DNA from: Henriciella pelagia
GTDB lineage: Bacteria; Pseudomonadota; Alphaproteobacteria; Caulobacterales; Hyphomonadaceae
NCBI RefSeq assembly: GCF_002088945.1
Contig: NZ_NCSU01000016.1
Span: 1-64,000, forward strand
Reading direction: 5' to 3'
Length of the DNA stretch: 64,000 nucleotides
Shown here: piece after piece, positions 16,422-33,195 of the stretch
Position numbering within the stretch: the first letter of the stretch is position 1
Layout: each line of letters begins with the position of its first letter
Program-made: the position numbers and the translations under genes
Notes under the pieces: model-generated
What the model was told of the DNA's origin: nothing
The model's database searches: none
What the model saw: the letters and a program-made list of their open reading frames with translations, nothing else

Positions 16422-17591
16422 TCAGGCCTTAGCCGACATGGACTTGCGCGACGCATGAACGGAATACGTCCGGTCACGCCGAAACGCTTTCAGCTTGTCC
16501 TCGTCGACCTCGACGGCAAGGCCAACACCCTCTTCCAGCTGGAGTTCGAAATCGACATAGCGCGCCGCCTGCACGGCTATATCCTCGGCGACAAGACCGG
16601 GCCCCGACAGTTCTCCGCCATAGGGCAGATCTGCCAGGGTCGCGCACAGTTGCATATTGGCCGCCGTACCGATCGAGCACTCCAGGAACGTTCCCATGTA
16701 GAGTGATATTCCACCGGCTTCGGCGATGTCAGCTATCCGCCGGGTCGCGAGAAGCCCGGCCGATTTCATGACCTTGAGGGAGACGAGGTCTGCTGCGCGC
16801 ATCTCTGCGATCCGGAGCATGTCCTGCGGCGTGCAAAGCCCTTCATCGATCATGATCGCGCAGTTGCTGCGAGCGGTCAGCCGGGCCGAGGCAGCAAGAT
16901 TCCATCGCGCCATCGGCTGCTCGACCATGACAATGCCGGCATCGGCCATACGGGGGACGGCCCATTTGGTAGTGGTTTCATCCCACATCTCGTTCGGATC
17001 GCCCCGGACGCTCGCTCTGCCCTCGAGCCCGCGCGCAACAGCGCAAGCGCGCTCGACATCCTGAACCGGATCGACGGCCCCCATTTTCAGTTTGAAGATG
17101 TTGTGGCGTTTGCTTTCAAGCATGCGTTCGGCCTCCTCGATCTCACTTGAAGCCTCGCCGGTCGCCAGCGGCCACGAACAGGGAAGGCTGGCGCGACGCT
17201 TGCCCCCCATCAGGTCGTGAACCGGAACACCGAGAGCCTTGCCCTGAAGGTCGAGCATCGCCATTTCAACACTCGCCTTTGCGAATGCATTGCCGAACAG
17301 GGCGCGGTCGAGACGCGCCATGGACGGAGCGAGATCGAACGCATCAGTCCCTGTCAGCACCGGGGCAATTTGCTCGTCGATCATCAGCTTGATGGTTTCG
17401 ACGCTCTCGCCGCCCCACCATGGCCCTGAAGGCGTTACAGCCTCGCCGATGCCTTCCAGACCGTCCTTGGTACGCATGCGCACAAGCACAATACTTGTCG
17501 AATTCGCGCCGACAGCGGCGAAGCGCTGCAATCTCCGCAAGGGGAGATCGACAATTATTGCCTCGATGGACTGGATAGTAAGTTTGCTCAT
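16422..17591 (-). CDS. Muconate/chloromuconate cycloisomerase
   Basis: This 389-residue enolase-superfamily enzyme converts cis,cis-muconate (or its chloro form) to muconolactone or a dienelactone. Seen are the N-terminal cap, the KxK base motif in NIFKLKMG (about residue 167), metal-ligand segments RGDPNEMWD, VEQPMARW and IMIDEGL, and the opposite-face lysine in DLVSLKVMKSAG. It is slightly longer than usual (370-380). GAGGT lies before the ATG. It is divergent from a LysR regulator with an ATAC-N7-GTAT operator between, as in cat and clc loci. The neighbouring chlorocatechol-type dioxygenase, dienelactone hydrolase and maleylacetate reductase favour a modified ortho pathway over the ordinary catechol branch. 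Confidence 0.85.
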   Translation of the reverse strand: MSKLTIQSIEAIIVDLPLRRLQRFAAVGANSTSIVLVRMRTKDGLEGIGEAVTPSGPWWGGESVETIKLMIDEQIAPVLTGTDAFDLAPSMARLDRALFGNAFAKASVEMAMLDLQGKALGVPVHDLMGGKRRASLPCSWPLATGEASSEIEEAERMLESKRHNIFKLKMGAVDPVQDVERACAVARGLEGRASVRGDPNEMWDETTTKWAVPRMADAGIVMVEQPMARWNLAASARLTARSNCAIMIDEGLCTPQDMLRIAEMRAADLVSLKVMKSAGLLATRRIADIAEAGGISLYMGTFLECSIGTAANMQLCATLADLPYGGELSGPGLVAEDIAVQAARYVDFELQLEEGVGLAVEVDEDKLKAFRRDRTYSVHASRKSMSAKA

Positions 17592-17692
17592 GCTGACCTC
17601 GTTCGGGGCCTAACAAAGCAGGCCCGATATGTTTCGAGCGATGCTAGGAAGGAGCAAAGGCGCCTGTAAAATACCAAGTTCAATCCATCTAA

Positions 17693-17707
17693 ATACCGAA
17701 ACGGTAT
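17693..17707. promoter_or_regulatory. LysR operator (ATAC-N7-GTAT), copy 1
   Basis: ATACCGAAACGGTAT is a near-perfect dyad and fits the ATAC-N7-GTAT consensus bound by CatR/ClcR-type LysR regulators. It lies between the cycloisomerase gene (102 bases to its start) and the LysR gene (65 bases to its start), the expected autoregulatory position. Confidence 0.7.
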
Positions 17708-17771
17708 TGAAGCCCGGGAAAAACTTGCCTAGCCTGTATCACAGTGTGAGAAGAACCCGCTGGGCGGAGCC

Positions 17772-18674
17772 ATGGAACTCAGGCAGCTCAAATATTTTGT
17801 CGCTGTGGCCGAAGAAGGAAATTTCGGAGCTGCAGCGCGTCGGCTGAATATTTCTCAGCCGCCCATTACCCGCCAGATCCAGAAACTCGAAGACGAGCTC
17901 GGTGTCTTGCTTCTCAGGCGGACCACGAAAGGCGCAGAACTGACCACCTCGGGTGAGGTGTTCCTCGAAGATGCGCGCCAGACACTGGCCCAGGTGGCGC
18001 GCGGCATGGAGCGAAGCCGAGCCGCTCAGCGTGGAGAACTCGGTACGCTGGAGGTGGGATATTTTGGATCGCCCATCTACCGGGTCGTGCCCGAGCTGCT
18101 TCAGGCTTTCCATAGCGCCCTTCCCGATGTCGGCATTGCCCTGCATCGCATGAGCAAGGGCGAACAGGTCGCCGCCCTGCAATCAGGTCAGATCCATATT
18201 GGATTTGGCCGCTACTATCCTCCCGAGCCCGGTATCGTGGTTGAGGAAATCCTCAGGGAAGGCCTCTCAGTCGCCGTTTCGGTTGATTTCGAGCATGATC
18301 CCCCGGTGGGAGAGCGCCTGTCCATTTTCGACAAGGTTCCCCTCATAGTGTTTCCCGGACGTGGCCGGCCGAACTTTGCAGATGAAGTCCTTGGCATTCT
18401 AAAGCGAGAGAATGTTTCGGCCCGGGTTGAGACTGTTGCCGAGGACGTGCGCTCGGCGCTTACACTGACAGCCATCGGGGCAGGCGCGACCATCGTGCCG
18501 GGAACTGTGGCAGATTTCAGCTGGTCAGGTGTGCGCTTCATTCCGCTTGAAACACTGCGCCTGGAATGCCCAGTCAACTGCGTCTATCGCAAGTCTGAGA
18601 CATCGCCCATTCTGAAAGCGATGCTGAGTACGCTGCGGCAGTTCCGCGCGGAGCGGTCGCGGGAGGTGGCCTAA
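17772..18674 (+). CDS. LysR-family regulator of the aromatic pathway (CatR/ClcR-like)
   Basis: The 300-residue protein has a typical LysR winged helix (MELRQLKYFVAVAEEGNFGAAARRLNISQPPITRQIQKLEDELG, residues 1-44) and a periplasmic-binding-protein-like effector domain from about residue 90. The start MELRQLKYFVAVAEEGNF and ISQPPITRQI are characteristic of the CatR/ClcR/TfdR/BenM group, whose inducer is usually a muconate. It diverges from the cycloisomerase gene. ATAC-N7-GTAT sites occur in its own promoter, before the TonB receptor and before the dioxygenase operon, so it probably controls all three. Confidence 0.9.
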   Translation: MELRQLKYFVAVAEEGNFGAAARRLNISQPPITRQIQKLEDELGVLLLRRTTKGAELTTSGEVFLEDARQTLAQVARGMERSRAAQRGELGTLEVGYFGSPIYRVVPELLQAFHSALPDVGIALHRMSKGEQVAALQSGQIHIGFGRYYPPEPGIVVEEILREGLSVAVSVDFEHDPPVGERLSIFDKVPLIVFPGRGRPNFADEVLGILKRENVSARVETVAEDVRSALTLTAIGAGATIVPGTVADFSWSGVRFIPLETLRLECPVNCVYRKSETSPILKAMLSTLRQFRAERSREVA

Positions 18675-18725
18675 CAGCCGGCGAGTACAATTCGATAGCA
18701 TTCGCAATCGAAAAACAGTCTCACA

Positions 18726-18740: not shown

Positions 18741-18794
18741 CGACAAGAATTTCTGAAAGTATTGGCCGCATCATCCGTCACCTGACTAGCTTCC

Positions 18795-18812: not shown

Positions 18813-18820
18813 AGGAATTA

Positions 18821-21151
18821 ATGATGTTACGCTCGACGTTGTTGAGACGTTCGCTCGTGCTGGGCGCAAGTAGCCTGGCCTTTTCACTGAACGCGATCGC
18901 GCAGGAAGCCGGCTCTGAGCCGGCCGAGGATGATCGTCGCCTGCAGACCGTAACCGTTACTGCGCAAGGCCGCGAGGAGTCGCTCCAAGATGTTGGCGTG
19001 GCCGTTACCGCTCTGAGCGGTCAGGATATAACGACACGTGGAATCATCGACATTGAGAGCCTCGTTCCAGAAACTCCCGGCGTCACCCTGGCAGAATCGC
19101 CCTTCCAGCGCACCGTAGCGATCCGCGGCCTCGGCTCGACGGGTGGCAATCTCGGCATTGAACAGTCGGCACCCTTCTTCATTGATGGCGTCTTTGGCGG
19201 GCGTTCGGGCCAGTTTCTGGCCCCTTTTTTCGATCTTGAGGCCGTCGAGATCATTCGTGGCCCACAGGCCATATTCTTCGGCAAGAATGCGACAGCCGGC
19301 GCTGTCAGCATCAAGTCCGCACGGCCGACGGATGATTTCCTGGCCAGTCTGTCGGCAGGTTATGAGATCGAGAATGAAGGCTCCTTCGGTGAAGCCGTTA
19401 TTTCAGGACCGTTCACCGATACACTACGCGGGCGTCTGGCCGTTCGCTACACAGACCGCGGCGACTATCTGCGTGACACATCGACTGGCGGGGGCGCTGG
19501 CGGGTATGAGGAAACCGCCATCCGCGGCGGGCTGGAATGGGACCTCAGCTCCGATATTGAGGCCTATCTCAAATACGAGCATGCAGAGCGTGAAGCGAGC
19601 CGTCGGTTCCAGCTCGCATGCGCCAATCCGGAAGTGACGGAAATCGCCGGGCCGTTCGGTGCGGTCGTGGAATGCGTACTGGATGACAGGCTGTCTTCCG
19701 GCGCGGCATTCGGCCCCCTGTCCCAGACCTATCCGCCCGGAGGAGACCAATCGGAGAATGAGACAGAGAATGTTGCCCTGCAGGTCGACTGGGCGCTTGG
19801 CGCTCATTCCTTGGAACTGATCAGTGGTTACTCCTCATATGGCATGCAGTTCACGGACGGACTGGACCGCAGCGCCATTGGTCTGGCAGCGTCGACAACG
19901 GATGAGACATTCGAGCAATGGTCCCAGGAAGTCCGGCTCATTTCGCCAAGCGGCGGACAATTCGAGTATGTGCTCGGCGCCCTCTATCTCGAGCAGACAC
20001 ATGAAGCCCTGCAGAGCATCACCCAGCCAATTCCGTCAGATCCCATGCTCCTCGCTGCGCTGGGCCTCACGACGCCGCCCAATCCGCCTTTCCTTACCGA
20101 TGTCATCGACGCCACGCAGGAAGCGGAAGCCTATTCACTCTTCGCAGAACTGACCTGGAACTTCACCGATTCCTTCCGCGTATCGGCCGGCGCGCGCTAT
20201 ACGAGTGAGGAAAAGGATTTCGACCCAAACGTTTTCCGCTACTTCGGTCCCGTCGCCACGCAGACTACTGTGCATAATTTTGCATCCGCTACCGCTGACC
20301 AGGTTTTCACCTTCGAGAATCCCGGCGATGCTGAAGCGCTCCGCCGTGATGAGGAAAGCCTCGATCCTGTCGTCACGGCAGAATGGGAAGCGGCGGACGA
20401 TGTGCTGCTCTATGCGACGTACGCGAAGGGCACCAAGGCTGGTGGGTACGAATTCTTCGCACGCGGTCTTTTCCTTCCGCTACCTGCCAATTTCCTCAGC
20501 ATCGAGGAAGAGGAAGCCACGAATTATGAGCTAGGTTTCAAGTCGACCCTGGCTGAAGGGCGCGCGAGGCTCAATGGCGCGGTATTCCTCACAGAGATTG
20601 ACGGATTTCAAAACCAGGTCGTGAACACCCAGATCATTGGCTTCGAGACGTTCAATGCCGATGCTGAAATCTTTGGTGTGGAAATGGATGGCGTCTTCAA
20701 TATCACCGACACTTACCAGCTTGGCGGGTCATTCAGCTATCTCGACACTGAGTACAAGGAGCTGTTCACCGGCAATCCTCTGCCCTTCGCCCCTGAGTTC
20801 TCAGGCAATCTCTATCTTGCCGGTCACCGTTCGCTCGGCAGCACCGGCTGGCAACTCAACACACGCCTGCAGGCTAACCATACCGGCGAGATGTCATTTG
20901 ACGGTACGAATGCCGAGCCAGACAGGGCTGATGCCTACACTCTGATTGATTTGCGCATTGGGTTGGAATCGGAACGGAGTGGCTGGGAGATTGCGGTGAA
21001 TGCCAAGAATCTCACCGATGAGGACGATATTCTCCTCTATAGCGCGCCGACCTTTCTCAGCAATCAGCCGCAATACGCCGCTGCCAACCCCAGGGGCCCC
21101 CTGGTCGGTGAAGGCCGAACGATCATGCTACAAGTAAGGAAAGACTTCTGA
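18821..21151 (+). CDS. TonB-dependent outer-membrane receptor (aromatic pathway)
   Basis: The 776-residue protein has a signal peptide (about residues 1-27, cleavage after AIA) and a TonB-box-like LQTVTVTA. Its plug domain has VAIRGLGSTGG and VEIIRGPQAIFFGKNATAGAVSIKSARP, and a full 22-strand barrel ends in LQVRKDF. These receptors import scarce substrates across the outer membrane using TonB energy. GGGAGGA precedes ATG-ATG at 18821. It lies between the LysR gene and the oxygenase reductase and has its own ATAC-N7-GTAT site, so the substrate is probably the aromatic compound handled by this cluster. That substrate link is inference. Confidence 0.9.
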   Translation: MMLRSTLLRRSLVLGASSLAFSLNAIAQEAGSEPAEDDRRLQTVTVTAQGREESLQDVGVAVTALSGQDITTRGIIDIESLVPETPGVTLAESPFQRTVAIRGLGSTGGNLGIEQSAPFFIDGVFGGRSGQFLAPFFDLEAVEIIRGPQAIFFGKNATAGAVSIKSARPTDDFLASLSAGYEIENEGSFGEAVISGPFTDTLRGRLAVRYTDRGDYLRDTSTGGGAGGYEETAIRGGLEWDLSSDIEAYLKYEHAEREASRRFQLACANPEVTEIAGPFGAVVECVLDDRLSSGAAFGPLSQTYPPGGDQSENETENVALQVDWALGAHSLELISGYSSYGMQFTDGLDRSAIGLAASTTDETFEQWSQEVRLISPSGGQFEYVLGALYLEQTHEALQSITQPIPSDPMLLAALGLTTPPNPPFLTDVIDATQEAEAYSLFAELTWNFTDSFRVSAGARYTSEEKDFDPNVFRYFGPVATQTTVHNFASATADQVFTFENPGDAEALRRDEESLDPVVTAEWEAADDVLLYATYAKGTKAGGYEFFARGLFLPLPANFLSIEEEEATNYELGFKSTLAEGRARLNGAVFLTEIDGFQNQVVNTQIIGFETFNADAEIFGVEMDGVFNITDTYQLGGSFSYLDTEYKELFTGNPLPFAPEFSGNLYLAGHRSLGSTGWQLNTRLQANHTGEMSFDGTNAEPDRADAYTLIDLRIGLESERSGWEIAVNAKNLTDEDDILLYSAPTFLSNQPQYAAANPRGPLVGEGRTIMLQVRKDF

Positions 21152-21271
21152 AGCAGTAATGGAACTGCGCCACAGGACACTCAGACAAGATTTCAGGACG
21201 ATTTGGGCTGCGGTCCGAAACCACCGTCCCCTAGCATCAGGAATGACTTGAACTTGGTCAGGGAGATCCTT

Positions 21272-22237
21272 GTGGCGCAGACGATCACAGCAGAAGTATC
21301 AAACAAGACTCAAGTGGCGCGGAATGTCTTTGCCTTTGAGCTGCGCGTACCCGCAGAAGCCTTTCAAACTGCCGAAGCGGGGGCGCATATCGATGTCCAT
21401 GTCGCCGACGGCTTGATCCGCCAATACTCTCTGGTCGAGCCTGCAGGGCCTGGCGACGACGCTTACCGCATCGCGGTTCTCCGCGAGCCTGATGGCCGTG
21501 GTGCGTCCCTTGCGCTTTGCGATCGTGTCATGACTGGCGACCAGGTCGAGATTTCTTCACCGCGAAATCATTTCCGCCTTGATGCCGGTCAGGGGCACTA
21601 TTGTCTGATTGGCGCCGGAATCGGCGTTACTCCAATCCTTTCAATGGCCCATGCGCTACATGCACGCAGCGGTTCCTTCGAGGTCCATCTATGTGCCCGT
21701 TCGCCCGACCATCTTGCCTTTTATCACGAGATAAGGTCTGCGGCCTGGGCAGGGCGCGTTCACTATCATTTTAGTCAAGAAACCACTTCCGGACGCCTCG
21801 ACCTGGCAGCATTTCTACCCGGCCTCAATGCTGGCACCCAGCTTTACGTCTGCGGTCCCGAAAGGTTTCTGGACGAGGTATCAAATTTGACGCGCGGATG
21901 GTCGGCCGGAAGGGTTCGCCAGGAACGCTTTTCGGCATCTGCGAACGCGACAGTTGAAAGCGGGACTGGAAGCTTTGAAATTGCAATCAAGAGCACAGGA
22001 CAGGTCTTCTCCGTCGGTTCAGACCAATCTATTCTCGAAGTGCTTGAAGCCAATGGTTTCGATATAGACGTTTCCTGCACAGAAGGCGTCTGCGGGACAT
22101 GCCTGACAGGAGTCGTGGAAGGCAAACCAGTCCATCGCGACTCCTGCCTCTACGAAGAGGAACAGGCTGAAGGAAAAATCATGGCAGTCTGCGTGTCGCG
22201 CGCGAAACCTAATTCAACGCTCGTGCTGGATCTTTAA
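21272..22237 (+). CDS. Rieske oxygenase reductase (VanB/phthalate dioxygenase reductase type)
   Basis: The 321-residue flavo-iron-sulfur protein takes electrons from NAD(P)H to a terminal Rieske oxygenase. Order of domains is an FMN-binding barrel (RQYSLVEPAG), a nucleotide domain (YCLIGAGIGVTPILSMA, LYVCGPERF) and a C-terminal plant-type [2Fe-2S] domain (CTEGVCGTCLTGVV with the distal cysteine in HRDSC). I choose the GTG at 21272 because GGGAG precedes it and the length then matches VanB. An in-frame TTG at 21203 would add 23 residues. It converges on the AraC gene with overlapping stop codons. The likely partner is the Rieske oxygenase at 30184-31572. Confidence 0.9.
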   Translation: MAQTITAEVSNKTQVARNVFAFELRVPAEAFQTAEAGAHIDVHVADGLIRQYSLVEPAGPGDDAYRIAVLREPDGRGASLALCDRVMTGDQVEISSPRNHFRLDAGQGHYCLIGAGIGVTPILSMAHALHARSGSFEVHLCARSPDHLAFYHEIRSAAWAGRVHYHFSQETTSGRLDLAAFLPGLNAGTQLYVCGPERFLDEVSNLTRGWSAGRVRQERFSASANATVESGTGSFEIAIKSTGQVFSVGSDQSILEVLEANGFDIDVSCTEGVCGTCLTGVVEGKPVHRDSCLYEEEQAEGKIMAVCVSRAKPNSTLVLDL

Positions 22238-23142
22238 CCCTTCCGTTTCTGCTTGCGGTAGGCATTTGGACTCACGCCGATCATCCGTTTGAAAGCCTTG
22301 TGGAACGACGCGTCGGACTTGTAGCCCACTTCAAAGGCGATTTCCGAGACTGACAGCTCATTGGCCCGAAGCAGCCGGGTTGCCCGGGCCATGCGGATCC
22401 TGGTCAGATAGTCGACCGGTGTCTGATCAACAATCTCGCGGAAGCGCTGTGCAAACACAGACCGCGACAGGCCGGCCTGACTGGCAAGACGGTCGAGCGT
22501 CCAAGCCTCATCGGGGTTTTCATGGATGGCCAGAAGCGCCTTCCTGATATGAGGATCGCCGACACCAGCGGCCGCGTTGAGCCCGTCCGATTTGAGACTT
22601 CTCAGCACATATTCGAGAAGAATTATCGCGGCGACCTCTGCAAGCCTATGGGTAATCTGGGTGCGGTCTTCTTCGGGTGTGAGCGCATTCTCTCGGATCA
22701 GGCTGAAGATCAGGTCGAGCTGACGCTCCTGGCGCATTTCAGCACGACTTAGAACGATGATGTCCGGAACGATATCGGGGAGCGGATTCGACACGCTCGG
22801 CATACGGCCAGCAAAAATGACGGGCCCATCTCCATGAGGTGGATCAATCGGAAACGGCGGATCAAGGTGTCCTTGCCTGACGAGCGGATGACCGGGCGCA
22901 TGAAGGGTATGCATGCCTCCTTTTGGAAGACTGCAAAGCCCGCCCTTCTCGACTTGAACGGCCTTCCTGTCGCCTGATTGCACCATGATCGGGCCATCCT
23001 CGGGCAGATAGATGGCAGAGACCCCCGGAGCAGGAACCTCGTACCTTGTCCCGGGAACAAGTTGAACCAGACCAGCCACAAGTTCGGTCACGCGAATATT
23101 CGGAACAGCCACGAAGACTCCTGCTCTAGACGGGTCGGACAT
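22234..23142 (-). CDS. AraC-family regulator with cupin N-domain
   Basis: The 302-residue protein has an N-terminal AraC-type ligand domain of the cupin_6 group (SAIYLPEDGPIMVQSGDR, SLPKGGMHTLHAPG). Two helix-turn-helix motifs follow: WTLDRLASQAGLSRSVFAQRFREIV and VSEIAFEVGYKSDASFHKAFKRMIGVSPNAYR. The ATG at 23142 is preferred over an in-frame TTG at 23157, which would overlap the operator at 23151-23165. It diverges from the dioxygenase operon, so it may add a second layer of control there. The effector is unknown. Confidence 0.85.
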   Translation of the reverse strand: MSDPSRAGVFVAVPNIRVTELVAGLVQLVPGTRYEVPAPGVSAIYLPEDGPIMVQSGDRKAVQVEKGGLCSLPKGGMHTLHAPGHPLVRQGHLDPPFPIDPPHGDGPVIFAGRMPSVSNPLPDIVPDIIVLSRAEMRQERQLDLIFSLIRENALTPEEDRTQITHRLAEVAAIILLEYVLRSLKSDGLNAAAGVGDPHIRKALLAIHENPDEAWTLDRLASQAGLSRSVFAQRFREIVDQTPVDYLTRIRMARATRLLRANELSVSEIAFEVGYKSDASFHKAFKRMIGVSPNAYRKQKRKG

Positions 23143-23150
23143 GGCAAACG

Positions 23151-23165
23151 ATACCAAAACGGTAT
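23151..23165. promoter_or_regulatory. LysR operator (ATAC-N7-GTAT), copy 3
   Basis: ATACCAAAACGGTAT differs from copy 1 at one base. It lies 116 bases upstream of the dioxygenase ATG and directly upstream of the divergent AraC gene. A partial repeat, ending ACGGTAT, follows at about 23190-23196. It could be the weaker activation half-site seen at LysR promoters. Confidence 0.65.
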
Positions 23166-23280: not shown

Positions 23281-24054
23281 ATGGCAAATAACAGGGCCGA
23301 CGAAGTGGTCAGCGCAATCGTGGAGGGCGTGCGTCATGCCGTCCGCGAAAAGGATGTCACCTTCGAGGAGTACCGTGCAGGTATCGCCTATCTGATGAAG
23401 ATCGCCCAATCCGGCGAACTGCCCCTGCTTGTGGACCTGTTCCTGAATTCGACCATTGTCAGCAATATCAATGAGAAAAACGCGCCTGGCGTATCGCCCT
23501 CCGACATGGAAGGGCCTTATTTCATCGAGGACGTTCCCGAAGTCGATGGCCAGCTCAAGGTGCTTGACGATGACCGCTGCGACCCGCTCCTGCTTCGCGG
23601 CACAATCCGCGACCAGGATGGAAATCCGCTTCCCGGCGCAACTGTTTTCGTCTGGTCCTCGACCCATGACGGCAAGTATGGCGGCATTCATGATGAGCTG
23701 CCAAAGGATCTCTATCGCGGCAAGCTCACAACCGATTCTGCCGGCCGCTATGAAGTGGAATCGCGCGTTCCTGTCCCCTATACAATTCCCAATACCGGTC
23801 CTGTCGGCGCCCTGCTTGAAATGATGGGCAGGCACACCTGGCGTCCGGCGCATGTCCACTACAAGATCCGCCATGACGGCTTTCAGGAACTGACGACCCA
23901 GGTCTATTTCGAGGGCGGTGACTATGTTGAGGACGATTGCTGCGAAGGGATCGTCCCGCCCGAATTCGTGAAGCCGGTCATAAGGGAGAACGGCAAGGTC
24001 GTCCTCGATGTCGACTTCACGGTCCAGCGCGCTGTCGAAACCGCATCAGCCTGA
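23281..24054 (+). CDS. Chlorocatechol-type intradiol 1,2-dioxygenase
   Basis: The 257-residue Fe(III) enzyme cleaves a catechol between its hydroxyls to a cis,cis-muconate. Ligands can be placed at Tyr133 (GKYGG), Tyr167 (PVPYTIP) and His191/His193 (WRPAHVHYKI). The N-terminal helical linker (residues 1-75) and the GPYF motif match the family. The length and the start (VVSAIVEGVRHAV, EYRAGIAYLMKIAQ) resemble chlorocatechol dioxygenases (about 250-260) more than catechol dioxygenases (about 300-310); hydroxyquinol 1,2-dioxygenase remains possible. It is the first gene of a plus-strand operon. GGAGGAGCAGTC precedes the ATG. Confidence 0.88.
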   Translation: MANNRADEVVSAIVEGVRHAVREKDVTFEEYRAGIAYLMKIAQSGELPLLVDLFLNSTIVSNINEKNAPGVSPSDMEGPYFIEDVPEVDGQLKVLDDDRCDPLLLRGTIRDQDGNPLPGATVFVWSSTHDGKYGGIHDELPKDLYRGKLTTDSAGRYEVESRVPVPYTIPNTGPVGALLEMMGRHTWRPAHVHYKIRHDGFQELTTQVYFEGGDYVEDDCCEGIVPPEFVKPVIRENGKVVLDVDFTVQRAVETASA

Positions 24055-24832: not shown

Positions 24833-25891
24833 TTGCGACCATTCACCTACACCGGACTGCCTGCCCGCGTCATCTTCGGGTCTGGAACGGTCTCCGTGCT
24901 CGCCGAAGAAATCAAGGCCCTCAAAGCGAGCCGCGCGCTTGTGCTGACGACTCCGCCCCAGGCCCCACAAGGTGAGCAGATCACCGAAGAACTCGGAAGC
25001 CTTGCTGCCGGCATGTTTACCCGTGCGGCAATGCATACCCCTGTCGCGGTGACGGAAGAAGCGATGAAGGCGTATGACAAAGCCGGTGCGGACTGCGTCG
25101 TCTCGATTGGCGGCGGATCGACGATCGGGCTCGGCAAGGCGATCGCGCTGCGAAACGGCACGCCTCAAATCGTTCTGCCCACGACCTATGCGGGCTCGGA
25201 AATGACGTCCATCATTGGTCAAACCGAGCAAGGCGAGAAAACCACACAAAAAACGCTCAAAGTCCTTCCGGAAACCGTCATTTACGATGTCAATTTCACT
25301 CTGTCGCTACCTGTGGGCATGAGCGTAACCAGCGGCATGAACGCAATCGCTCACGCGGTTGAGGCCCTCTACGCAGAACAAGCCAATCCCGTCCTCAGCC
25401 TCATGGCTGAAGAGGGTATATCGGCTCTTTTCGGGGCCCTGCCGCGTATTGTGGCTTCACCGCAGGACCCGGATGCCAGGAGCGATGCCCTTTATGGTGC
25501 CTGGCTCTGCGCGGTCTGCCTCGGTTCCGGCGGCGTCGCTTTGCACCACAAGCTCTGTCACGTGCTCGGCGGCTCGTTCGACTTGCCCCATGCCGAGACC
25601 CACACAATCGTGCTGCCTCATGCCCTCGCCTATAATGCCCCCGCAATACCGGACGCCATGACAGCGCTGAAGCGCGCAACGGGAAGTGATGATCCGGCGG
25701 GCAAGTTCTTCGACATCGCTCGCCAAGGCGGTGCGCCCGCTGGGCTCAGGGATCTGGGCATGCCTGAATCGGAAATCGACAGGGCCGTGGAAATCGCGTT
25801 CCGAAACCCGTACTTCAATCCAAGGCCACTCGAAGAAGCAGGGATCCGGCGTATTATCCGGGCCGCATGGGCTGGAGACCGGCCTTCATGA
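24833..25891 (+). CDS. Maleylacetate reductase
   Basis: This iron-alcohol-dehydrogenase-family enzyme reduces maleylacetate, and can remove a halogen from 2-chloromaleylacetate, giving 3-oxoadipate. The 352 residues match the family. Seen are SIGGGSTIGLGKAIALR for nucleotide binding, PTTYAGSEMT, the metal-site segment HKLCHVLGGSF and HTIVLPHALAYN. Translation appears to start at a TTG with a strong AGGAGGA site nine bases upstream; the next internal ATG would remove the N-terminal strands. Together with the two genes before it, it defines the chlorocatechol or hydroxyquinol branch. Confidence 0.9.
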   Translation: MRPFTYTGLPARVIFGSGTVSVLAEEIKALKASRALVLTTPPQAPQGEQITEELGSLAAGMFTRAAMHTPVAVTEEAMKAYDKAGADCVVSIGGGSTIGLGKAIALRNGTPQIVLPTTYAGSEMTSIIGQTEQGEKTTQKTLKVLPETVIYDVNFTLSLPVGMSVTSGMNAIAHAVEALYAEQANPVLSLMAEEGISALFGALPRIVASPQDPDARSDALYGAWLCAVCLGSGGVALHHKLCHVLGGSFDLPHAETHTIVLPHALAYNAPAIPDAMTALKRATGSDDPAGKFFDIARQGGAPAGLRDLGMPESEIDRAVEIAFRNPYFNPRPLEEAGIRRIIRAAWAGDRPS

Positions 25892-25970: not shown

Positions 25971-26261
25971 ATGGATACGCTACCTGCCGCCTCACTTGCC
26001 GATGTGCAGCGTCCCATCTCATTCAGGCGCGCGCTTCTTGAGCCGGTTACGGTCAAGCGTGCCCTGAAAGTTGGCCTGCTGGTTGGCTCCATCCTTGTGC
26101 TGATCAATCAGGGCGACGGCATGATCGGGGGCGCCATCCCCCCTTACTGGAAGGTCCTCCTGACCTACTGCGTGCCCTATTGTGTCTCTTCATATTCTAC
26201 GGCCATGTTCATGGTCGAGCTCGGCCGAAAATCCTCTCGGCCGCAACGGCAGGACGCCTGA
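25971..26261 (+). CDS. NrtS-like small membrane protein
   Basis: The 96-residue protein has two hydrophobic helices, VGLLVGSILVLINQGD and YWKVLLTYCVPYCVSSYSTA. The conserved blocks LINQGD and LLTYCVPYCVS match the NrtS family, described as small nitrate/nitrite transporters. GGGAGG precedes the start; a GTG one codon upstream is an alternative. It sits inside the ring-cleavage operon, between maleylacetate reductase and a peroxiredoxin-like gene, where a nitrate transporter is unexpected. The name is a family resemblance only, and its substrate here is open. Confidence 0.65.
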   Translation: MDTLPAASLADVQRPISFRRALLEPVTVKRALKVGLLVGSILVLINQGDGMIGGAIPPYWKVLLTYCVPYCVSSYSTAMFMVELGRKSSRPQRQDA

Positions 26262-26263
26262 CC

Positions 26264-26812
26264 GTGCCGGTACTTCGTCCCGGTCAGCCTGCCCCGCCCC
26301 TGCAGTTCGGCCTTGCCGACGGCTCATCATGGAGCCTCGATGCGCAGGCGCCCGACATCTTCACCATGATTGTCTTCTACCGACATCGCCATTGCAGTGT
26401 CTGCAAGGAATACCTGAAAGCACTCGATGAGCTGCACGCAGATTTCGCTGCGCAAGGGACATCCTCTGTCGCCGTCTCCATGGGCTCGCGTGCCGATGCG
26501 AAAGCGTCTGTCAATGACCTTGACCTTTCAACCCTGCCGCTTGGACATGGACTGAGCCTGATGGCGGCAAGGGACTGGCAGCTCTTCCTGTCGGCCAGCC
26601 GACGCGAGACCGAACCTGCGCTGTTTTGCGAACCCGGCCTGTTTCTCGTCGACCGAAACCAGCGCCTCTACTTTGCCTCGATCCAGTCCATGCCATTTGG
26701 CCGGCCGGTCCTGGAACAGGTTCTCGACTGGATCCCGAAACTCGTCGAGCGCCGGACCGAGGCACGCGGTGAGGTCCCCATCGAACCAGCCATAGAAAGG
26801 GCAAAGGGCTGA
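26264..26812 (+). CDS. Peroxiredoxin-like (AhpC/TSA superfamily) protein
   Basis: The 182-residue protein has a thioredoxin-like fold as in the AhpC/TSA superfamily. The N-terminus is PVLRPGQPAPPLQFGLADG, the redox motif is VFYRHRHCSVCKEYLKAL (Cys-x-x-Cys, about residue 46) and LFLVDRNQRLYF lies in the C-terminal half. The GTG at 26264 lies two bases after the preceding stop, so translation is probably coupled. It may protect against peroxide made by uncoupled oxygenases; that is inference. Its specific partner is unknown. Confidence 0.65.
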   Translation: MPVLRPGQPAPPLQFGLADGSSWSLDAQAPDIFTMIVFYRHRHCSVCKEYLKALDELHADFAAQGTSSVAVSMGSRADAKASVNDLDLSTLPLGHGLSLMAARDWQLFLSASRRETEPALFCEPGLFLVDRNQRLYFASIQSMPFGRPVLEQVLDWIPKLVERRTEARGEVPIEPAIERAKG

Positions 26813-26813: not shown

Positions 26814-27521
26814 ATGACAGAAAAGGTATATGCATCCGCCGAGGAAGCTCTGAATGGCATTGTTCGCGATGACATGCTCGTCTGTGCAGGCGGGTTTGGC
26901 CTCTGCGGAATGCCGGAAAGCCTCATCTATGCTCTTCAGGCAACCGGCGTAAAAGGGTTGAGCGTTGTATCGAACAATGCTGGCATTGACGGCATCGGAC
27001 TGTCACGGCTGATAGAGACGCGACAGATCAGCAAGATGATCTCGTCCTATGTCGGAAACAATAAGACATTCGAGAAGGCCTATCTCGCCGGCGAAATCGA
27101 ACTTGAGTTCTCGCCGCAGGGTACGATGTCGGAACGGCTGAGAGCCGGCGGCGCGGGGATTGCCGGCTTCTATACCAGAACTGGCGTCGGGACCGTCATT
27201 GCCGAAGGCAAACCGCTAATGGAGTTCGAGGGCGACACCTTTGTCCTTGAGCGGGGGATCCGTGCCGATCTTGCCCTTGTCCGCGCCGAAACCGCCGACA
27301 CTGAGGGCAATCTCGTCTACCGGAAGACGGCAAGAAACTTCAATCCGATGATGGCGATGTCAGGGAGGGTGACGGTCGCCGAGGTCGAGCGCATTGTTCC
27401 GGCCGGCACGCTTGATCCCGACCACATCCACACATCCGGAATCTTCGTGCAGAGGATCGTAAAATCCTCCCAAGCCAAGCGCATCGAATTCACGACCAAT
27501 CGTGAGCGGGAGACTGCCTGA
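26814..27521 (+). CDS. 3-oxoacid (3-oxoadipate) CoA-transferase subunit A
   Basis: The 235-residue subunit belongs to CoA-transferase family I. Seen are the N-terminal [16 protein letters not shown], the [11 protein letters not shown] segment and the [21 protein letters not shown] block. With subunit B it moves CoA from succinyl-CoA to 3-oxoadipate (or acetoacetate). Position after maleylacetate reductase, whose product is 3-oxoadipate, favours the oxoadipate role. Its TGA overlaps the ATG of subunit B by one base. No 3-oxoadipyl-CoA thiolase gene is seen in the window. Confidence 0.88.
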
Positions 27522-28159
27522 TGACCTGGACAAGAGACGAAATGGCCCGTCGTGCCGCCGCCGAAATCGAGGACGGGTTCTATGTCAATCTCGGCATCGG
27601 CATCCCCACGCTGGTCGCAAACCATATTCCGCCGGGCCGCAAGGTTATCCTGCAGTCGGAAAACGGAATGCTGGCGATGGGCCCTTTTCCCTATCCGGGC
27701 GAGGAAGACCCAGACCTGATCAATGCCGGAAAGCAGACCGTCACCGAATTACCGGAAACCTCCTATTTCTCCTCGGCTGACAGTTTCGCCATGATCCGGG
27801 GCGGCCATATCGACCTGGCCATTCTGGGCGCCATGGAAGTCGCTGCCAATGGTGACCTCGCCAACTGGATGATCCCTGGAAAGATGGTCAAGGGTATGGG
27901 TGGTGCCATGGATCTTGTCGCCGGCGTTAGGCGGGTTGTCGTCATCATGGACCATTGCGCCAAGTCGGGCGAACCGAAACTTCTGAAAGCTTGCCACCTT
28001 CCGCTGACCGGCAAGGGCGTTGTCGACCGTGTGATCACCGATTTGGGGGTCTTCGACATTCTCGGGGACGCGATAGCGATTGCTGAACTCGCACCCGGCG
28101 TAACCCGTCAGGACGTCATCGACAGGACAGAAGCCGATATCAAGGACACAGAACGATGA
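27521..28159 (+). CDS. 3-oxoacid (3-oxoadipate) CoA-transferase subunit B
   Basis: The 212-residue subunit has the family motif [16 protein letters not shown] and the catalytic glutamate in SENGML (Glu47). [15 protein letters not shown] follows, and [21 protein letters not shown] lies in the C-terminal half. It overlaps subunit A by one base, giving coupled translation and equal amounts. A possible small reading frame begins at 28156 in its own stop region (ATGA overlap). Confidence 0.9.
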
Positions 28160-28340: not shown

Positions 28341-30077
28341 ATGCCCCGCCATCGACTCAGACTGGCCATACTGTTCAGCGTGCTCGGCGCCTGCTCCGGA
28401 GAAGGTCATGGAGGCGAGTTCGAGGCTCCGCAGGCACCCGCCAGCCAGACGGCGAACCCGGATCGCCCGACCAACATACTCCTTATCCTGGCAGATGATC
28501 TCGGCTTTTCTGATCTTGGTGCCTACGGGTCCGAAATCCCGACACCGCATCTAGACGGGCTCGCCCGCGAGGGCGTCCTTTTCACAAATTTCCATGTTTC
28601 GCCATCATGCGCCCCAACGCGGGCCATGCTGATGACCGGTGTTTCACCACTTGATGCAGGCATGGGGAGCGTTCCCCAGCTCATGACACCAGCGCAGCAG
28701 GGGCAGCGAGGCTATGAGGGACAGCTTGCCGCGCGTGTATCGACCATAGCCGAACATCTATCGGCGGCAGGGTACATGACATTCATAGCCGGCAAATGGC
28801 ATCTGGGAGCGACTCCGGAGGCGCTTCCAGACCAAAGGGGCTTTGAACGCAGTTTCGTGCTCGTCGATGGCGCAGCCAGCCATTTCAGCGACGGATATGG
28901 GTACAATGCCCGAAAGAAGCAGGCGACCTATGTCGAGAACGGCCAGCCTGCCCGCCTGCCTGACAGCTTCTATTCCTCGACCTATTACGCCGACCGCGTG
29001 ATCGAGAATCTGGAACAGGCCGCCAATGATGGTAGGCCGTTTTTTGGATATCTCGCTTTTACCGCGCCCCATTCGCCCCTTCATGCCCCGGATGACTGGA
29101 TCGCCCGCTTTTCCGGGCATTATGATGCGGGCTTCGAGGCGATCGCCGCTGACCGTATCGAAAACGCCCGCCAGAAAGGCGTAGTGCCGGCAGAAGCGGC
29201 GGCGCGCCCAGAGATCAAGCTTTCCAGCCGGTGGAACGATCTCTCGCAGGAGCAGAAGGCTGATATGGCAAGGCGCATGGAGGTCTATGCCGCCATGGTC
29301 GCCAGTATGGACCATGAAGTCGGCAGGGTGCTCGAACGGCTGGAGGCGCTTGGGCAGTTGGATGATACGCTCATCATCTTCCTATCCGATAATGGCCCCG
29401 ACCCCTCCTTCCAGGAAGAGGCGCCAATGAATAACGCCTGGATCGAGCAGACATTCGACAACAGGCTTGAGAATTATGGCCGCCGCGGATCCTATATTTC
29501 CTACGGGCTGGACTGGTCACTTGTTTCATCGGCCCCCTTCAGCCTCTTCAAGGGCACTGTGGGAGAAGGCGGGATCCGTGTGCCCGCGATCATACGTTTT
29601 CCTGATGGCCGCCATGCTGGCGACCTCTATCGCGACTACGCAACCGCACTCGACGTGCTGCCAACCATTCTGGAGGTGTCGGACGTGTCGGCGGACGCCC
29701 TGATCGTCGGCAAGGGTACCATCCCGCCGCAGGGGCGCTCGCTCATAAGTGCCCTAGAGCGCCCCGGGAAGGGTGCCAGCCTCTCTACGCCAGCCGCATG
29801 GCAATCGCTTGGCACGAGAGCGTTGCAAGACGGACGCTGGAAGGCGCGCTATATCCAGCCACCTCTCGGCAGCGGCCAATGGACCCTGCATGATCTTGAG
29901 ACAGACCCCAACGAGGCGAACGACGTGTCATCAGAATATCCTGACCGTCTTCAAACGATGATCGATCAATGGACCGGCATCATGCAGGAGCGCGGTCTTG
30001 TCGAACCGCCTCCCCACTTCCTGTCGATGATCCTTCCATCCAAAAGATCAGACGCGGAAGAATCGAAGCCGGACTGA
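28341..30077 (+). CDS. Lipoprotein arylsulfatase
   Basis: The 578-residue type I sulfatase hydrolyses a sulfate ester. The N-terminus is a lipoprotein signal with lipobox LGAC (Cys16), so it is probably membrane-anchored outside the cytoplasm. The metal-site motif ILLILADDLGFSDLG and the activation motif SCAPTRAMLMTG (Cys90, the CxPxR signature for conversion to formylglycine) are intact, followed by GKWHLG and a C-terminal alpha/beta subdomain. AAAGGAG precedes the ATG; a longer frame to 28185 lacks a site. It ends the plus-strand ring-cleavage operon. A formylglycine-generating enzyme is nearby at 32239-33195. The substrate is probably an aryl sulfate entering the pathway, by context. Confidence 0.88.
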   Translation: MPRHRLRLAILFSVLGACSGEGHGGEFEAPQAPASQTANPDRPTNILLILADDLGFSDLGAYGSEIPTPHLDGLAREGVLFTNFHVSPSCAPTRAMLMTGVSPLDAGMGSVPQLMTPAQQGQRGYEGQLAARVSTIAEHLSAAGYMTFIAGKWHLGATPEALPDQRGFERSFVLVDGAASHFSDGYGYNARKKQATYVENGQPARLPDSFYSSTYYADRVIENLEQAANDGRPFFGYLAFTAPHSPLHAPDDWIARFSGHYDAGFEAIAADRIENARQKGVVPAEAAARPEIKLSSRWNDLSQEQKADMARRMEVYAAMVASMDHEVGRVLERLEALGQLDDTLIIFLSDNGPDPSFQEEAPMNNAWIEQTFDNRLENYGRRGSYISYGLDWSLVSSAPFSLFKGTVGEGGIRVPAIIRFPDGRHAGDLYRDYATALDVLPTILEVSDVSADALIVGKGTIPPQGRSLISALERPGKGASLSTPAAWQSLGTRALQDGRWKARYIQPPLGSGQWTLHDLETDPNEANDVSSEYPDRLQTMIDQWTGIMQERGLVEPPPHFLSMILPSKRSDAEESKPD

Positions 30078-30183: not shown

Positions 30184-31572
30184 TTATCCCGCCGAAGCGC
30201 CAGCTCGGGTCGTGACACGGTGCGCGAGGGGATCCAGGCCGCGCTTTCGGCGTTCTTCCTGTTCTTCCTTGTGCGCATCCTTCATCATCTGACGGACCTT
30301 GAGCACCGCCCGGTCAGTACGCGCGAGCTGGTCCTTGTCCCAGCGTGCAATACGGCCTTGCGACATCTGCATTGGGGCATCACCGCCGACGAAGCAGGCC
30401 ATGCCAGGCAGCTGATCTGACTGCAGGGCCTTTTTCAGCATGAAGGACATGGTCTTGGCCTTGCGCTTGGAGACGACCGAGGAATCGATCGCCCCGATAA
30501 GCCAGCCGGTAAAAGTGCCGATATCGTTAGGTACGAACCAGAAGAACAGGCCATGGACGCCGCCTTCCATGAATTCACGACCGTGGTGCACGAGATTTGG
30601 CATGAACCAGCGAATGTCGTCGATCGCTTTTGTGCCCCCGTGACCGCCTTCCTCGCGAAGCGATGCGTAGACGCCATTGCCCGGCAGCATCTCGAATTTC
30701 ACGCCCCCGCCCATCTTCTGGTCACCGAAGAGATAGCAGGTCCGGTGAAGGCAGCCGACATGGGTCATGTCGACGGTATTGTCGAGCTGGTTGAGATAGC
30801 TGTAGGGCACTTCCATCCGGTTGCGCACAAGAACATCGTCAGCCAGGACTTCCCGGATATGCGCCATTGAGTCCAGAAGCGGTTTCGGCTCCTTGACCCC
30901 CATATAGACCCAGATGATACCGCCTTCCTCTGTGGCAGGGTAGGATACAGCCTTCACCTTCTTGCAGGCTGGGCTGTCAGGTCCATCCGCGAGGAATGCC
31001 ACGCAGTCGCCGTGCTTGTTAAAGGTCATGCCGTGATAGCGGCAGGTAATCGTGCCCACATCCCAGACATTGACCTGACCGAGCGAGAGGAGCGGGCCAC
31101 GGTGAGGGCACCGGTTCTCCAGCGCGCAGGGGCTACCATCCTTGTCGCGAAACAGGATGACATTATCGCCCAGAAGCTTGATCGCCTTGTGCTCATTGTG
31201 TTTGAGCTCATCGGAGAACAGTGCCGGATACCAGTATTCACGCAGACCAAAGAACGGGATTTCCTCCTGATACTCCTCGACATAGTCCCAGGGCACTTCG
31301 CGGATGGAATCCGGCTTGTCGGGCGTACCGTGAGGCTTCTTGTACCAATTGGCCATGAAGCTGCTCTCGGACGAAAGGACCTGCAGTCGCGGCTCGTCAT
31401 ACCTGCGCTTCAGGAAACCCAGTCCGGGAATGCTGCCAAAGATCGCGCGTGCCTTGCGGCCAACCAGTTCAGCCGTTCCGCGCTTGAACTTGCCGCCATA
31501 GCTGGTGGTCGGTGCAACCGTCTGAAAACGTTCTTTCTCATCGATCAGCGTATGGGCGTTACCGTCAGGCAT
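30184..31572 (-). CDS. Rieske non-heme iron oxygenase, alpha subunit
   Basis: The 462-residue terminal oxygenase has a Rieske [2Fe-2S] site (Cys155-x-His157 in NRCPHRG, Cys177-x2-His180 in CRYHGMTF). A mononuclear iron site lies in NQLDNTVDMTHVGCLH, with His271 and His276 and a bridging Asp. The single-subunit layout and VanB-type reductase point to the vanillate O-demethylase/phthalate dioxygenase group, which hydroxylates or O-dealkylates aromatics. GGAGG precedes the ATG. It converges on the sulfatase gene. With the reductase at 21272 it would make a two-component system feeding a catechol to the intradiol dioxygenase. The exact substrate cannot be read from sequence. Confidence 0.88.
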   Translation of the reverse strand: MPDGNAHTLIDEKERFQTVAPTTSYGGKFKRGTAELVGRKARAIFGSIPGLGFLKRRYDEPRLQVLSSESSFMANWYKKPHGTPDKPDSIREVPWDYVEEYQEEIPFFGLREYWYPALFSDELKHNEHKAIKLLGDNVILFRDKDGSPCALENRCPHRGPLLSLGQVNVWDVGTITCRYHGMTFNKHGDCVAFLADGPDSPACKKVKAVSYPATEEGGIIWVYMGVKEPKPLLDSMAHIREVLADDVLVRNRMEVPYSYLNQLDNTVDMTHVGCLHRTCYLFGDQKMGGGVKFEMLPGNGVYASLREEGGHGGTKAIDDIRWFMPNLVHHGREFMEGGVHGLFFWFVPNDIGTFTGWLIGAIDSSVVSKRKAKTMSFMLKKALQSDQLPGMACFVGGDAPMQMSQGRIARWDKDQLARTDRAVLKVRQMMKDAHKEEQEERRKRGLDPLAHRVTTRAGASAG

Positions 31573-31918
31573 GAGGAATCCTCCACATTGTTCACGTGCC
31601 GCCTGGCACGAATTTGGTGAATTATCTCAATAGTGTAGCCTTCCGGATTAGAGGGCGCCCTGCCCGATCGTCTGGATTTCGCTCCAATCGTCCTGAATTA
31701 CCTCCCCACTGGCAGACCACGATCTGGCTCAACGCTATTTGACGTTAGCACTGGAAACACGCCTGCAATTATATAGGACCCCTATTTATAATCGTCCCGA
31801 GACAGGAGGCGAGCGATGCGGCCTCCGACCGCGAGGCGACTGCCAGATCGCAGCGCTTCGCAAGTACGGATGCCAACCAGACGGACGCCCCGCCCGCGGC
31901 AACGGTCGAGGCGCCCTG
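31573..31918. other. Promoter-side spacer upstream of the Rieske oxygenase
   Basis: No gene is seen. It must contain the minus-strand promoter of the oxygenase gene. An imperfect AT-rich dyad (about 31767-31791, TATATAGG opposite CCTATTTATA) is the only structured element. No ATAC-N7-GTAT site was found here, so this oxygenase may not share the LysR control. Confidence 0.4.
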
Positions 31919-32176
31919 ATGTCAAACCCACCTCTCGAAGAGTATCGCATCGGTTATCCCGTTGCCATCGACGCACCGGGCGTGGATGGCGGGCCGCCGA
32001 AGACATTGACCGCCTATGGCATACAGGGCACGCCGGCATTGGTCATGATGCTCGGAATTGAAGCACATATTCGCGTAGCGCGGCGCGCACATCGGCGGCT
32101 ATATCAGAACTGCGAATTCAAGGGGTTCCTTGCCCGAAAGCAGCAGTCATGGAGTTCGCGCAACACGATTTCCTGA
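31919..32176 (+). pseudogene. Remnant of a thioredoxin-like (redoxin) protein
   Basis: The frame reads EEYRIGYPVAIDAPG and TLTAYGIQGTPALVMM. This resembles the C-terminal half of TlpA/redoxin-type proteins, where a YG-x-x-GTP-x-LV turn carries the cis-proline. The CxxC half is missing upstream, and after LVMM the sequence loses family character. It appears to be a decayed fragment. Identification is tentative. Confidence 0.35.
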
Positions 32177-32238
32177 AACAATTGCCGTGCTCATCATCTG
32201 TCTGCCCCAGGGAGGAGGCGCGCGGCGCCGACCAGTTT

Positions 32239-33195
32239 TCAATCAACATCATATGCAACCCGGAAACCGATATGGCTCGCGGAGAAGTCGAGTTGCTGAA
32301 TCTGTTTGGCTGCCGGCCGATAGCGTTGGCAGTAAGTGTCCGAGCACAGAAATGAACCGCCTTTCAGCAGCCCTCTATTCTGCTCGATGCTCGCATCTGC
32401 GACCCACTCCCAGACATTACCTGTCATGTCATGAAGTCCGTATCCATTGGGTGGGTAACAGCCGACTGGCGAACTGCGGTCAAATCCGTCAGCCTCTGAA
32501 TTCTCGATGGGGAATACGCCCTGCCAGATATTCGCGCGGTAGGCACCCGCATCAGGAACGGTGTTACCCCATTCATAAGTTGCGCCGGACAAGCCACCGC
32601 GCGCGGCAAATTCCCATTCCGCTTCGGTGGGAAGGCGACCTCCTGCCCAGTCAGCGAAGGCTTTGGCATCGGCATAGGCAATGTGAACGACAGGATGGTC
32701 CCAACGACCATCCAGCGATGAGCCTGGCCCTTCAGGATGGCGCCAGGATGCGCCTGGAATGAATTGCCACCAGTTCCGCATCAATTTCGAAGGCACCAGG
32801 AACACGGCCGATCCCGGAATCAGCAGCGCTTCTGGAATATCAGGATGAAGATCAGATGAGGGTTCGCGTTCGGCAACGGACTTGTAGTCCGTCGCTTCGA
32901 CAAATTCGGCAAATCGCCGATTGCTGACTTCCGTCGCATCGATCTCGAACGGACCGACCGTCTTCATCTGGGCGGGTGCTTCCTCCGCGTAGCCCTCATT
33001 GCTGCCCATCAAGAATGTGCCGCCAGTGAGTTTTACGCGAGGCGATACAAGCTGAGACCTGCAAAGCTCCGATGAATGATCTGCAAGCGGCAGTTGGTGT
33101 TGCGCCTTTCCCGCCTGCGAAAACACAATGGCCATACCCGTCCACAACAAGAATGAATGGAGTTTGCCTGATGAGATGGTCTCGACCATGGTCAT
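32239..33195 (-). CDS. Formylglycine-generating enzyme (sulfatase-maturing), with signal peptide
   Basis: The 318-residue SUMF1/FGE-family protein oxidises the sulfatase active-site cysteine to formylglycine. Seen are VKLTGGTFLMGSNEG, IDATEVSNRRFAEFV, GGRLPTEAEWEFAARGG, MTGNVWEWVAD and the catalytic pair Cys284/Cys289 in GGSFLCSDTYCQRYRP. Residues about 8-35 look like a cleavable signal peptide (LLWTGMAIVFSQAGKAQ), which is unusual for a bacterial FGE expected to act before export. Start is placed at the ATG at 33195; an upstream in-frame TTG at 33234 would lengthen it by 13. The evident client is the arylsulfatase at 28341-30077. Confidence 0.85.
   Translation of the reverse strand: MTMVETISSGKLHSFLLWTGMAIVFSQAGKAQHQLPLADHSSELCRSQLVSPRVKLTGGTFLMGSNEGYAEEAPAQMKTVGPFEIDATEVSNRRFAEFVEATDYKSVAEREPSSDLHPDIPEALLIPGSAVFLVPSKLMRNWWQFIPGASWRHPEGPGSSLDGRWDHPVVHIAYADAKAFADWAGGRLPTEAEWEFAARGGLSGATYEWGNTVPDAGAYRANIWQGVFPIENSEADGFDRSSPVGCYPPNGYGLHDMTGNVWEWVADASIEQNRGLLKGGSFLCSDTYCQRYRPAAKQIQQLDFSASHIGFRVAYDVD

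Follow-up and report, generated by a model that had tools for sequence, protein, structure and literature searches.

A stretch of 64,000 nucleotides from Henriciella pelagia (NZ_NCSU01000016.1, positions 1 to 64,000; hereafter the window), situated on contig 7 of a 3.44-Mb host genome in 16 contigs, carries between positions 16422 and 33234 a gene cluster in which a Rieske oxygenase, its reductase, a LysR-type and an AraC-family regulator and a chlorocatechol-type set of ring-cleavage genes form a conserved unit. Beside this unit lie genes for an AtsA-type arylsulfatase and a formylglycine-generating enzyme (FGE), the maturase of sulfatases. We read the whole, with modest confidence, as a horizontally assembled catabolic cluster for aromatic or haloaromatic compounds that has gained an accessory arylsulfatase for sulfate-ester substrates. 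The host belongs to a marine bacterial group and would probably use an aromatic, perhaps halogenated, compound as food. A Rieske gene that travels with a chlorocatechol pathway in three genomes is a concrete and testable candidate for the first step of such a pathway, and is the part of the cluster most worth testing.

A search of 105 family genomes, the host among them, found two with the dioxygenase (E<=1e-40) and the same two with the Rieske protein (E<=1e-60): the host and a second genome of the same genus (G028). In 385 genomes sampled evenly across the class, only the host had either protein (Rieske at E<=1e-80, dioxygenase at E<=1e-45), and of 398 genomes sampled from the order, three encoded the Rieske protein: the host, G028 (78% identity) and G756 (69%), a genome from another GTDB family within the order. 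In G756, genes for PcaJ, PcaI, PcaF, maleylacetate reductase, dienelactone hydrolase and the dioxygenase, in that order, were found together with those for the AraC regulator, reductase, a TonB receptor, LysR regulator, cycloisomerase and Rieske oxygenase within ~14 kb, the PcaF within this cluster scoring over its cut-off. G028 splits the core into two modules on one contig, with 43 kb between its dioxygenase and its Rieske gene: module A comprises the ring-cleavage genes, LysR regulator, a redoxin, a full-length TonB receptor of the type found upstream of the cycloisomerase in the window and a TfdB-type hydroxylase, and module B runs from the reductase through the Rieske and AraC genes to a second TonB receptor. 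The window thus combines both modules. The TfdB-type gene of G028, encoding a 2,4-dichlorophenol hydroxylase (L026:6922-8706; 64-67% identity to plasmid TfdB), lies between the cycloisomerase and pcaJ.

Identities of the shared proteins to those of G028 and G756, respectively, were 71% and 66% for the cycloisomerase, 71% and 56% for the LysR regulator, and 44% and 43% for the reductase; the AraC regulator was 46% identical in both, and in both stood beside the reductase and Rieske genes. The TonB receptor of the window (18821..21151) matched two pieces of the G028 module B receptor at 55% and 64%. The G756 TonB receptor, considered as its orthologue, was rejected at 27% identity. A redoxin occupied the same place in G028 (42%), and none was found on the G756 cluster contig. 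Additional support for a link between the Rieske and ring-cleavage genes came from a protein database, in which the longest-contig size of five of 71 dioxygenase relatives (E<=1e-60) recurred among 110 Rieske relatives (E<=1e-40), an equal size being taken to indicate the same contig, against a jittered expectation of 0.1-0.3 and a maximum of 3 in 2000 trials. The five comprised G028, Alterisphingorhabdus coralli, two contigs of 34,613 and 4,850 bases, and a second assembly holding the G756 proteins themselves, as a check of their identity confirmed. A search of plasmids with the Rieske protein returned four records at 25-37% identity. The proposal, made in an earlier sequence-only reading of the window, that the Rieske and ring-cleavage genes belong together is thus supported by one cluster in G756, one contig in G028 and the five coincidences; the search for the same gene set in other genomes of the family, which that reading suggested, found the core in G028, whose modules had no AtsA-type sulfatase or FGE match.

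Every gene named in that reading was an intact open reading frame in the position assigned to it, with family support, though the gene list was incomplete, as it left out the LysR and AraC regulators, the redoxin and a truncated TonB receptor upstream. The plus strand carries the LysR-type regulator (17772..18674, divergent from the cycloisomerase), the TonB-dependent receptor (PF00593/PF07715), a probable Rieske oxygenase reductase with FAD/NAD-binding and C-terminal 2Fe-2S parts (21203..22237), and then an intradiol dioxygenase of the chlorocatechol 1,2-dioxygenase type (23281..24054), a dienelactone hydrolase (24074..24772, PF01738, motif GFCLGG, its start chosen from orthologues beginning MCHGQAV), a maleylacetate reductase of the iron-containing alcohol dehydrogenase family (24833..25891, PF00465/PF25137), a SelL-related AhpC/TSA redoxin (26180..26812) between the latter and pcaI, 3-oxoadipate CoA-transferase subunits A (PcaI type, 26814..27521; TIGR02429, 260.7 bits) and B (PcaJ type, 27521..28159; TIGR02428, 323.8 bits), both over cut-off, and the arylsulfatase (28341..30077, PF00884). 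On the minus strand lie the muconate/chloromuconate cycloisomerase (16422..17591), the AraC-family regulator with a cupin-like N-terminal part (22234..23157), the Rieske oxygenase terminal component (30184..31572) and the FGE (32239..33234; PF03781, 236.8 bits), which has a signal-like N terminus as judged by eye. With genes split over both strands, the cluster comprises several transcription units and is not one operon.

The cycloisomerase scored 415.9 bits against a cut-off of 334.95 for TIGR02534, a model that does not tell muconate from chloromuconate cycloisomerases, and the dienelactone hydrolase and the maleylacetate reductase, the latter 56% identical to the annotated maleylacetate reductase of plasmid pTAV3, are assigned at family level only. 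The dioxygenase carries RPAHVH at residue 188, and its best solved relative is the chlorocatechol 1,2-dioxygenase 3th1. In the Rieske protein, CxH/CxxH cluster ligands at 155-180 are followed by an iron site of the form D268-x2-H271-x4-H276, and a partner reductase gene accompanies it in the host, G028 and G756, as befits a two-component oxygenase. No TfdB relative was found in the host genome at E<=1e-10; as a control, the best PF01494 match there reached 107 bits versus 403 for the TfdB-type gene of G028. A dihydrodiol dehydrogenase was not seen among the shared cluster genes when the open reading frames were checked by eye, no family search having been aimed at one. Because neither a dihydrodiol dehydrogenase nor, in the host genome, a TfdB was seen, the Rieske enzyme probably yields a catechol or halocatechol directly. 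Modified ortho-cleavage genes are shared by the window, tfd-type plasmid modules and G028 module A, to which G028 adds TfdB, whereas the window has the Rieske gene in place of TfdB.

From these genes we infer the individual reactions, any halogen specificity or co-regulation, and the role of the sulfatase. The two-component Rieske oxygenase would convert an aryl substrate to the catechol or halocatechol, the dioxygenase would open the ring, and the cycloisomerase and dienelactone hydrolase would lead to maleylacetate, with halide lost en route if the substrate is halogenated. Maleylacetate reductase would then give 3-oxoadipate, which PcaIJ would activate and a thiolase encoded elsewhere would split. 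Synteny of the core supports the arene-to-3-oxoadipyl-CoA route proposed in the sequence-only reading, and the substrate may be halogenated or methoxylated, as that reading put forward. In the search for a 3-oxoadipyl-CoA thiolase that it suggested, no thiolase in the host genome scored over the PcaF cut-off, the best being an unlinked PcaF-like candidate on contig C3 (367.2 bits versus a cut-off of 597). In the host, an arylsulfatase and FGE appear to have been added beside the cluster, and the sulfatase would probably remove sulfate from ester forms of the substrate, or from other aryl sulfates, outside the cytoplasm, allowing the phenol to enter.

The sulfatase carries the CxPxR motif as SCAPTR at Cys90, and its homology to the arylsulfatase AtsA of Pseudomonas aeruginosa (1hdh) extends over the whole length, at 436 bits against 213 for the best solved chain other than 1hdh variants. 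The other active-site positions, whose roles we take to be those of the 1hdh residues, also match in an alignment judged by eye, and the protein is accordingly predicted to be of the small-aryl AtsA type; a lipobox (LGAC) marks it as a predicted lipoprotein, unlike P. aeruginosa AtsA. In the FGE, the catalytic pair Cys297/Cys302 aligns with that of 6s07. The sulfatase ATG (28341) lies 181 nt past pcaJ on the same strand, with its own AAAGGAG resembling a ribosome-binding site upstream, and the gap between them gave no terminator-like or promoter-like match in a scan that, overall, found about as many sites as in shuffled sequence. With GC fractions of 0.599 for the sulfatase, 0.557 for the FGE and 0.56-0.61 for the other cluster genes, the sulfatase is within the range of its neighbors and shows no sign of recent arrival.

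Precedents for such a placement were found on plasmids. The case that the sequence-only reading had named as fatal to itself, a sulfatase never occurring with these genes elsewhere, did not arise, since pND6-1, pTAV3 and pFER3 carry an AtsA-type sulfatase and FGE within catechol or hydroxyquinol clusters. Sixty-four plasmid records had a sulfatase relative at E<=1e-60, of which 14 from the top of the list, about one per species, were examined (11 annotated, viewed within 9-12 kb, and 3 unannotated). Ring-cleavage genes were annotated near the sulfatase in those three of the 11 annotated loci, and an FGE adjoined it in six; a tblastn screen of the three unannotated loci found neither ring-cleavage genes nor a maleylacetate reductase or CoA-transferase. 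On pND6-1, the order arylsulfatase-FGE-MFS-salA-catA, all on one strand, resembles the window in placing an AtsA-type sulfatase (42%) and FGE (47%) next to genes of an intradiol catechol pathway, with an AraC gene nearby, but differs in its plain catechol 1,2-dioxygenase and salicylate hydroxylase and in its annotation, which includes no Rieske gene for this segment. The cluster of pTAV3 (Paracoccus versutus) and pFER3 (P. ferrooxidans) likewise unites a sulfatase (41%), FGE (50%), intradiol dioxygenase, maleylacetate reductase, PcaF and PcaIJ; unlike in the window, a flavin hydroxylase replaces the Rieske enzyme, the dioxygenase is of the hydroxyquinol type and no cycloisomerase is annotated. 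The pND6-1 and P. versutus sulfatases were each ~42% like that of the window and 53% like each other, a divergence that, with the differing partner pathways, suggests separate insertions. An arylsulfatase and its maturase within ortho-cleavage clusters of three bacterial groups (Henriciella-like, Pseudomonas and Paracoccus) would make sense as a repeated add-on for aryl sulfates, and hints, short of proof, at a use of aryl sulfates for carbon as well as for sulfur. One paper reports an arylsulfatase and a maleylacetate reductase as separate salicylate-induced genes of Rhizobium. A limited literature search returned no paper joining arylsulfatase, chlorocatechol and Rieske, none on Henriciella with chlorocatechol, none treating aryl sulfate, sulfatase and an aromatic degradation gene cluster together, and none on topic for bromophenol and arylsulfatase in marine bacteria.

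Several results weigh against a catabolic cluster with a functionally attached arylsulfatase. The best model for the dioxygenase is TIGR02465 (chlorocatechol 1,2-dioxygenase), yet its score of 335.1 bits is below the equivalog cut-off of 359.25. The sulfatase and FGE are on opposite strands and so do not share one transcript. Two of the three plasmid cases, pTAV3 and pFER3, share one cluster, and among eight control stretches on eight of the same plasmids one held a ring-cleavage dioxygenase (nahC of pND6-1), so that 3 of 11 versus 1 of 8 establishes precedents and not enrichment. Only features annotated as ring-cleavage enzymes entered these counts; VOC-family proteins, possibly extradiol, were left uncounted, one at the Rhodococcus locus, one at the pND6-1 locus and three in the P. 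versutus control. Neither the G756 contig nor the G028 modules contained a match to an AtsA-type sulfatase or FGE, and none of 25 sulfatase neighborhoods in the family matched queries for ring-cleavage enzymes, maleylacetate reductase, CoA-transferase or Rieske protein. In favor of a link, three contig sizes (99,573, 5,476 and 4,667 bases) were shared between the best 120 of 5392 sulfatase relatives and the 110 Rieske relatives, with 0.18 expected above 4 kb and a maximum of 3 in 2000 jittered trials, although the 4,667-base coincidence, which joins different data sources, is the least trustworthy. Two sulfatase-dioxygenase coincidences were not counted, since a contig of 2,309 bases could not hold both genes and the second match (5,906 bases) joined different sources.

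The 25 neighborhoods were drawn from the 63 other genomes of the family with a sulfatase relative, most of them from the genus of the host and one on a contig of only 4.3 kb, and were screened by tblastn at E<=1e-12 with the dioxygenase of the window, catechol and hydroxyquinol dioxygenases, the cycloisomerase, maleylacetate reductase, PcaI/J, PcaF and the Rieske protein. In favor of a link, two of them hold a flavin monooxygenase 27% like the TfdB type, 5.4 kb (G066, L035:2414-3712) and 3.6 kb (G041, L036:4726-6333) from the sulfatase; these two sulfatases (44% and 43%) are the closest in the family to that of the window. A sulfatase hidden just past pcaJ in G756 was considered and rejected within the contig searched, as its remaining 826 bases hold a transposase-like open reading frame and an ATPase-like start (by eye) and no sulfatase start. 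G028 keeps an AtsA relative (34%) and an FGE (59%) on contig 13, 160 kb apart. A result pointing the other way is that two distant sulfatases (26% and 22%) begin ~7.5 kb past the G028 module B receptor; next to them are a glycosidase-like gene and a further TonB receptor (names by eye), and they are not counted as equivalents of the window pair. A sulfatase scan of a genome-contig collection gave one distant Verrucomicrobiaceae locus only (24%), and in the neighborhood of the Sphingobium herbicidovorans chlorocatechol dioxygenase no sulfatase is annotated. With the pair missing from the G028 modules and the G756 contig, and the ring-cleavage genes missing from all 25 sulfatase neighborhoods, the conserved core does not include it, and the dedicated sulfatase-maturase pair of the sequence-only reading is not supported as a conserved component.

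A somewhat less than even chance falls to the possibility that the sulfatase and FGE are passengers, of a sulfur-scavenging or polysaccharide type, with no functional tie to the aromatic genes. Their absence from the clusters of G028 and G756 favors this, as does the ordinary nature of the pair: sulfatase relatives (E<=1e-50) occur in 64 of the 105 family genomes, host included, and an FGE (E<=1e-50) lies within 8 kb of the sulfatase in 35 of the 63 others. The nearest relatives of the FGE (68% and 66%) occur in two genomes (G037 and G053) without a sulfatase of this type at E<=1e-50, and the host genome encodes a second sulfatase (contig C2) that could be matured by this FGE. Passages of a review (PMC3920027) also tie sulfatase induction to sulfate esters as the sole sulfur source. 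On the other side, the window sulfatase stands apart within the family, where its nearest relative is 44% identical, and is apparently of the small-aryl type, it lies 181 nt past pcaJ on the same strand, and the pair has parallel placements in the ortho-cleavage clusters of pND6-1 and the Paracoccus plasmids. The FGE was also considered as the sole maturase of the genome, which was rejected as a second FGE is present on contig C5.

Within the reading of an aromatic cluster with an accessory sulfatase, the nature of the first enzyme allows another view. The Rieske enzyme may be an O-demethylase of the guaiacol or haloguaiacol type, and not an ether-cleaving or angular dioxygenase, so that the catechol would arise by demethylation, which we think rather unlikely. 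Fold Z scores for guaiacol O-demethylase 7qwt (27.4) and dicamba monooxygenase (27.2), about two Z units from the best, point in this direction, as do a weak LigXa_C match below cut-off, the VanB-like reductase and the lack of need for a dihydrodiol dehydrogenase; the angular carbazole 1,9a-dioxygenase was also considered as a candidate closest fold, and folds missing from the structural comparison were not taken as evidence. It is improbable that the pathway serves non-halogenated catechols and owes its chlorocatechol likeness to ancestry only, for although the dioxygenase falls below the chlorocatechol equivalog cut-off and no halide-specific marker was found, the maleylacetate reductase and dienelactone hydrolase mark the modified branch, the G028 module includes the TfdB-type hydroxylase, and the closest solved relatives of the dioxygenase are chlorocatechol 1,2-dioxygenases.

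A related pathway has been published. The main text of Podell et al. 2020 (PMC7313196) describes two metagenome-assembled Hyphomonadaceae genomes, SP12AHP1 and SP5AHP2, that carry a complete pathway for 3,5-dichlorocatechol. They come from Lamellodysidea sponges, which harbor cyanobacterial symbionts that produce polybrominated diphenyl ethers. The gene order resembles that of Altererythrobacter marensis, and action on brominated compounds is left there as a hypothesis for future testing. As described there, the sponge cluster shares with the window the chlorocatechol dioxygenase, cycloisomerase, dienelactone hydrolase and maleylacetate reductase. The dioxygenases of G756 and A. marensis share 64% identity, the value also given in that paper, and G756 may well correspond to SP12AHP1. 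Its cluster is like the window in the Rieske, reductase, AraC, LysR and PcaIJ genes and unlike it in having no sulfatase or FGE match on the contig, a linked PcaF and a different TonB receptor. For the sponge cluster, the chlorocatechol genes are thus already published, and the Rieske gene goes unmentioned in the main text, where "Rieske," "sulfatase" and "TonB" occur 0 times. It would be a long shot that the cluster degrades halogenated aryl ethers or phenols of natural marine origin, such as bromophenols and hydroxy- or methoxy-polybrominated diphenyl ethers. In that case the Rieske enzyme would attack the ether-bearing carbon to give bromocatechol and bromophenol, bromocatechol would enter ring cleavage, and the arylsulfatase and its maturase would open a reservoir of sulfate esters of these same compounds.

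Traces of mobility surround the cluster. A gene for the conjugation protein TrbI (859-1383, 194.5 bits) near the left window edge suggests a conjugative element carrying catabolic genes. Upstream of the cycloisomerase, a truncated TonB receptor on the plus strand (14278..16001; 14130-16001 with its fusion) is 68% identical over 571 aa to the G028 module A receptor, the full-length counterpart that adjoins the cycloisomerase there; its 5', N-terminal part has been swapped for an IS66-like transposase remnant, with IS66 matches at 14198-14292 fused into the receptor. Together with the gene setting, the TrbI gene and the remnant fit a catabolic stretch assembled by mobile elements. In G756, a transposase-like open reading frame (L047:589-813, by eye) lies directly past pcaJ, so that a mobile-element edge occurs there too. 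No tRNA gene was found within the window. The IS66-like remnant marks the boundary between the chlorocatechol part and a complete-looking, operon-like alkane-oxidation set upstream (2165-13740), which encodes rubredoxin reductase, a large LuxR-type regulator, an AlkB-like hydroxylase, a two-domain rubredoxin, aldehyde dehydrogenase, GMC dehydrogenase, acyl-CoA ligase and an OmpW/AlkL-like porin, and presumably resembles the alk genes of Pseudomonas. The FGE is followed at positions 33416-42852 by genes, named partly by eye, for a response regulator, a GGDEF-EAL-like protein and hybrid PAS histidine kinases; these may be sensory neighbors of the cluster. Cytochrome cbb3 oxidase genes (names by eye) lie further downstream.

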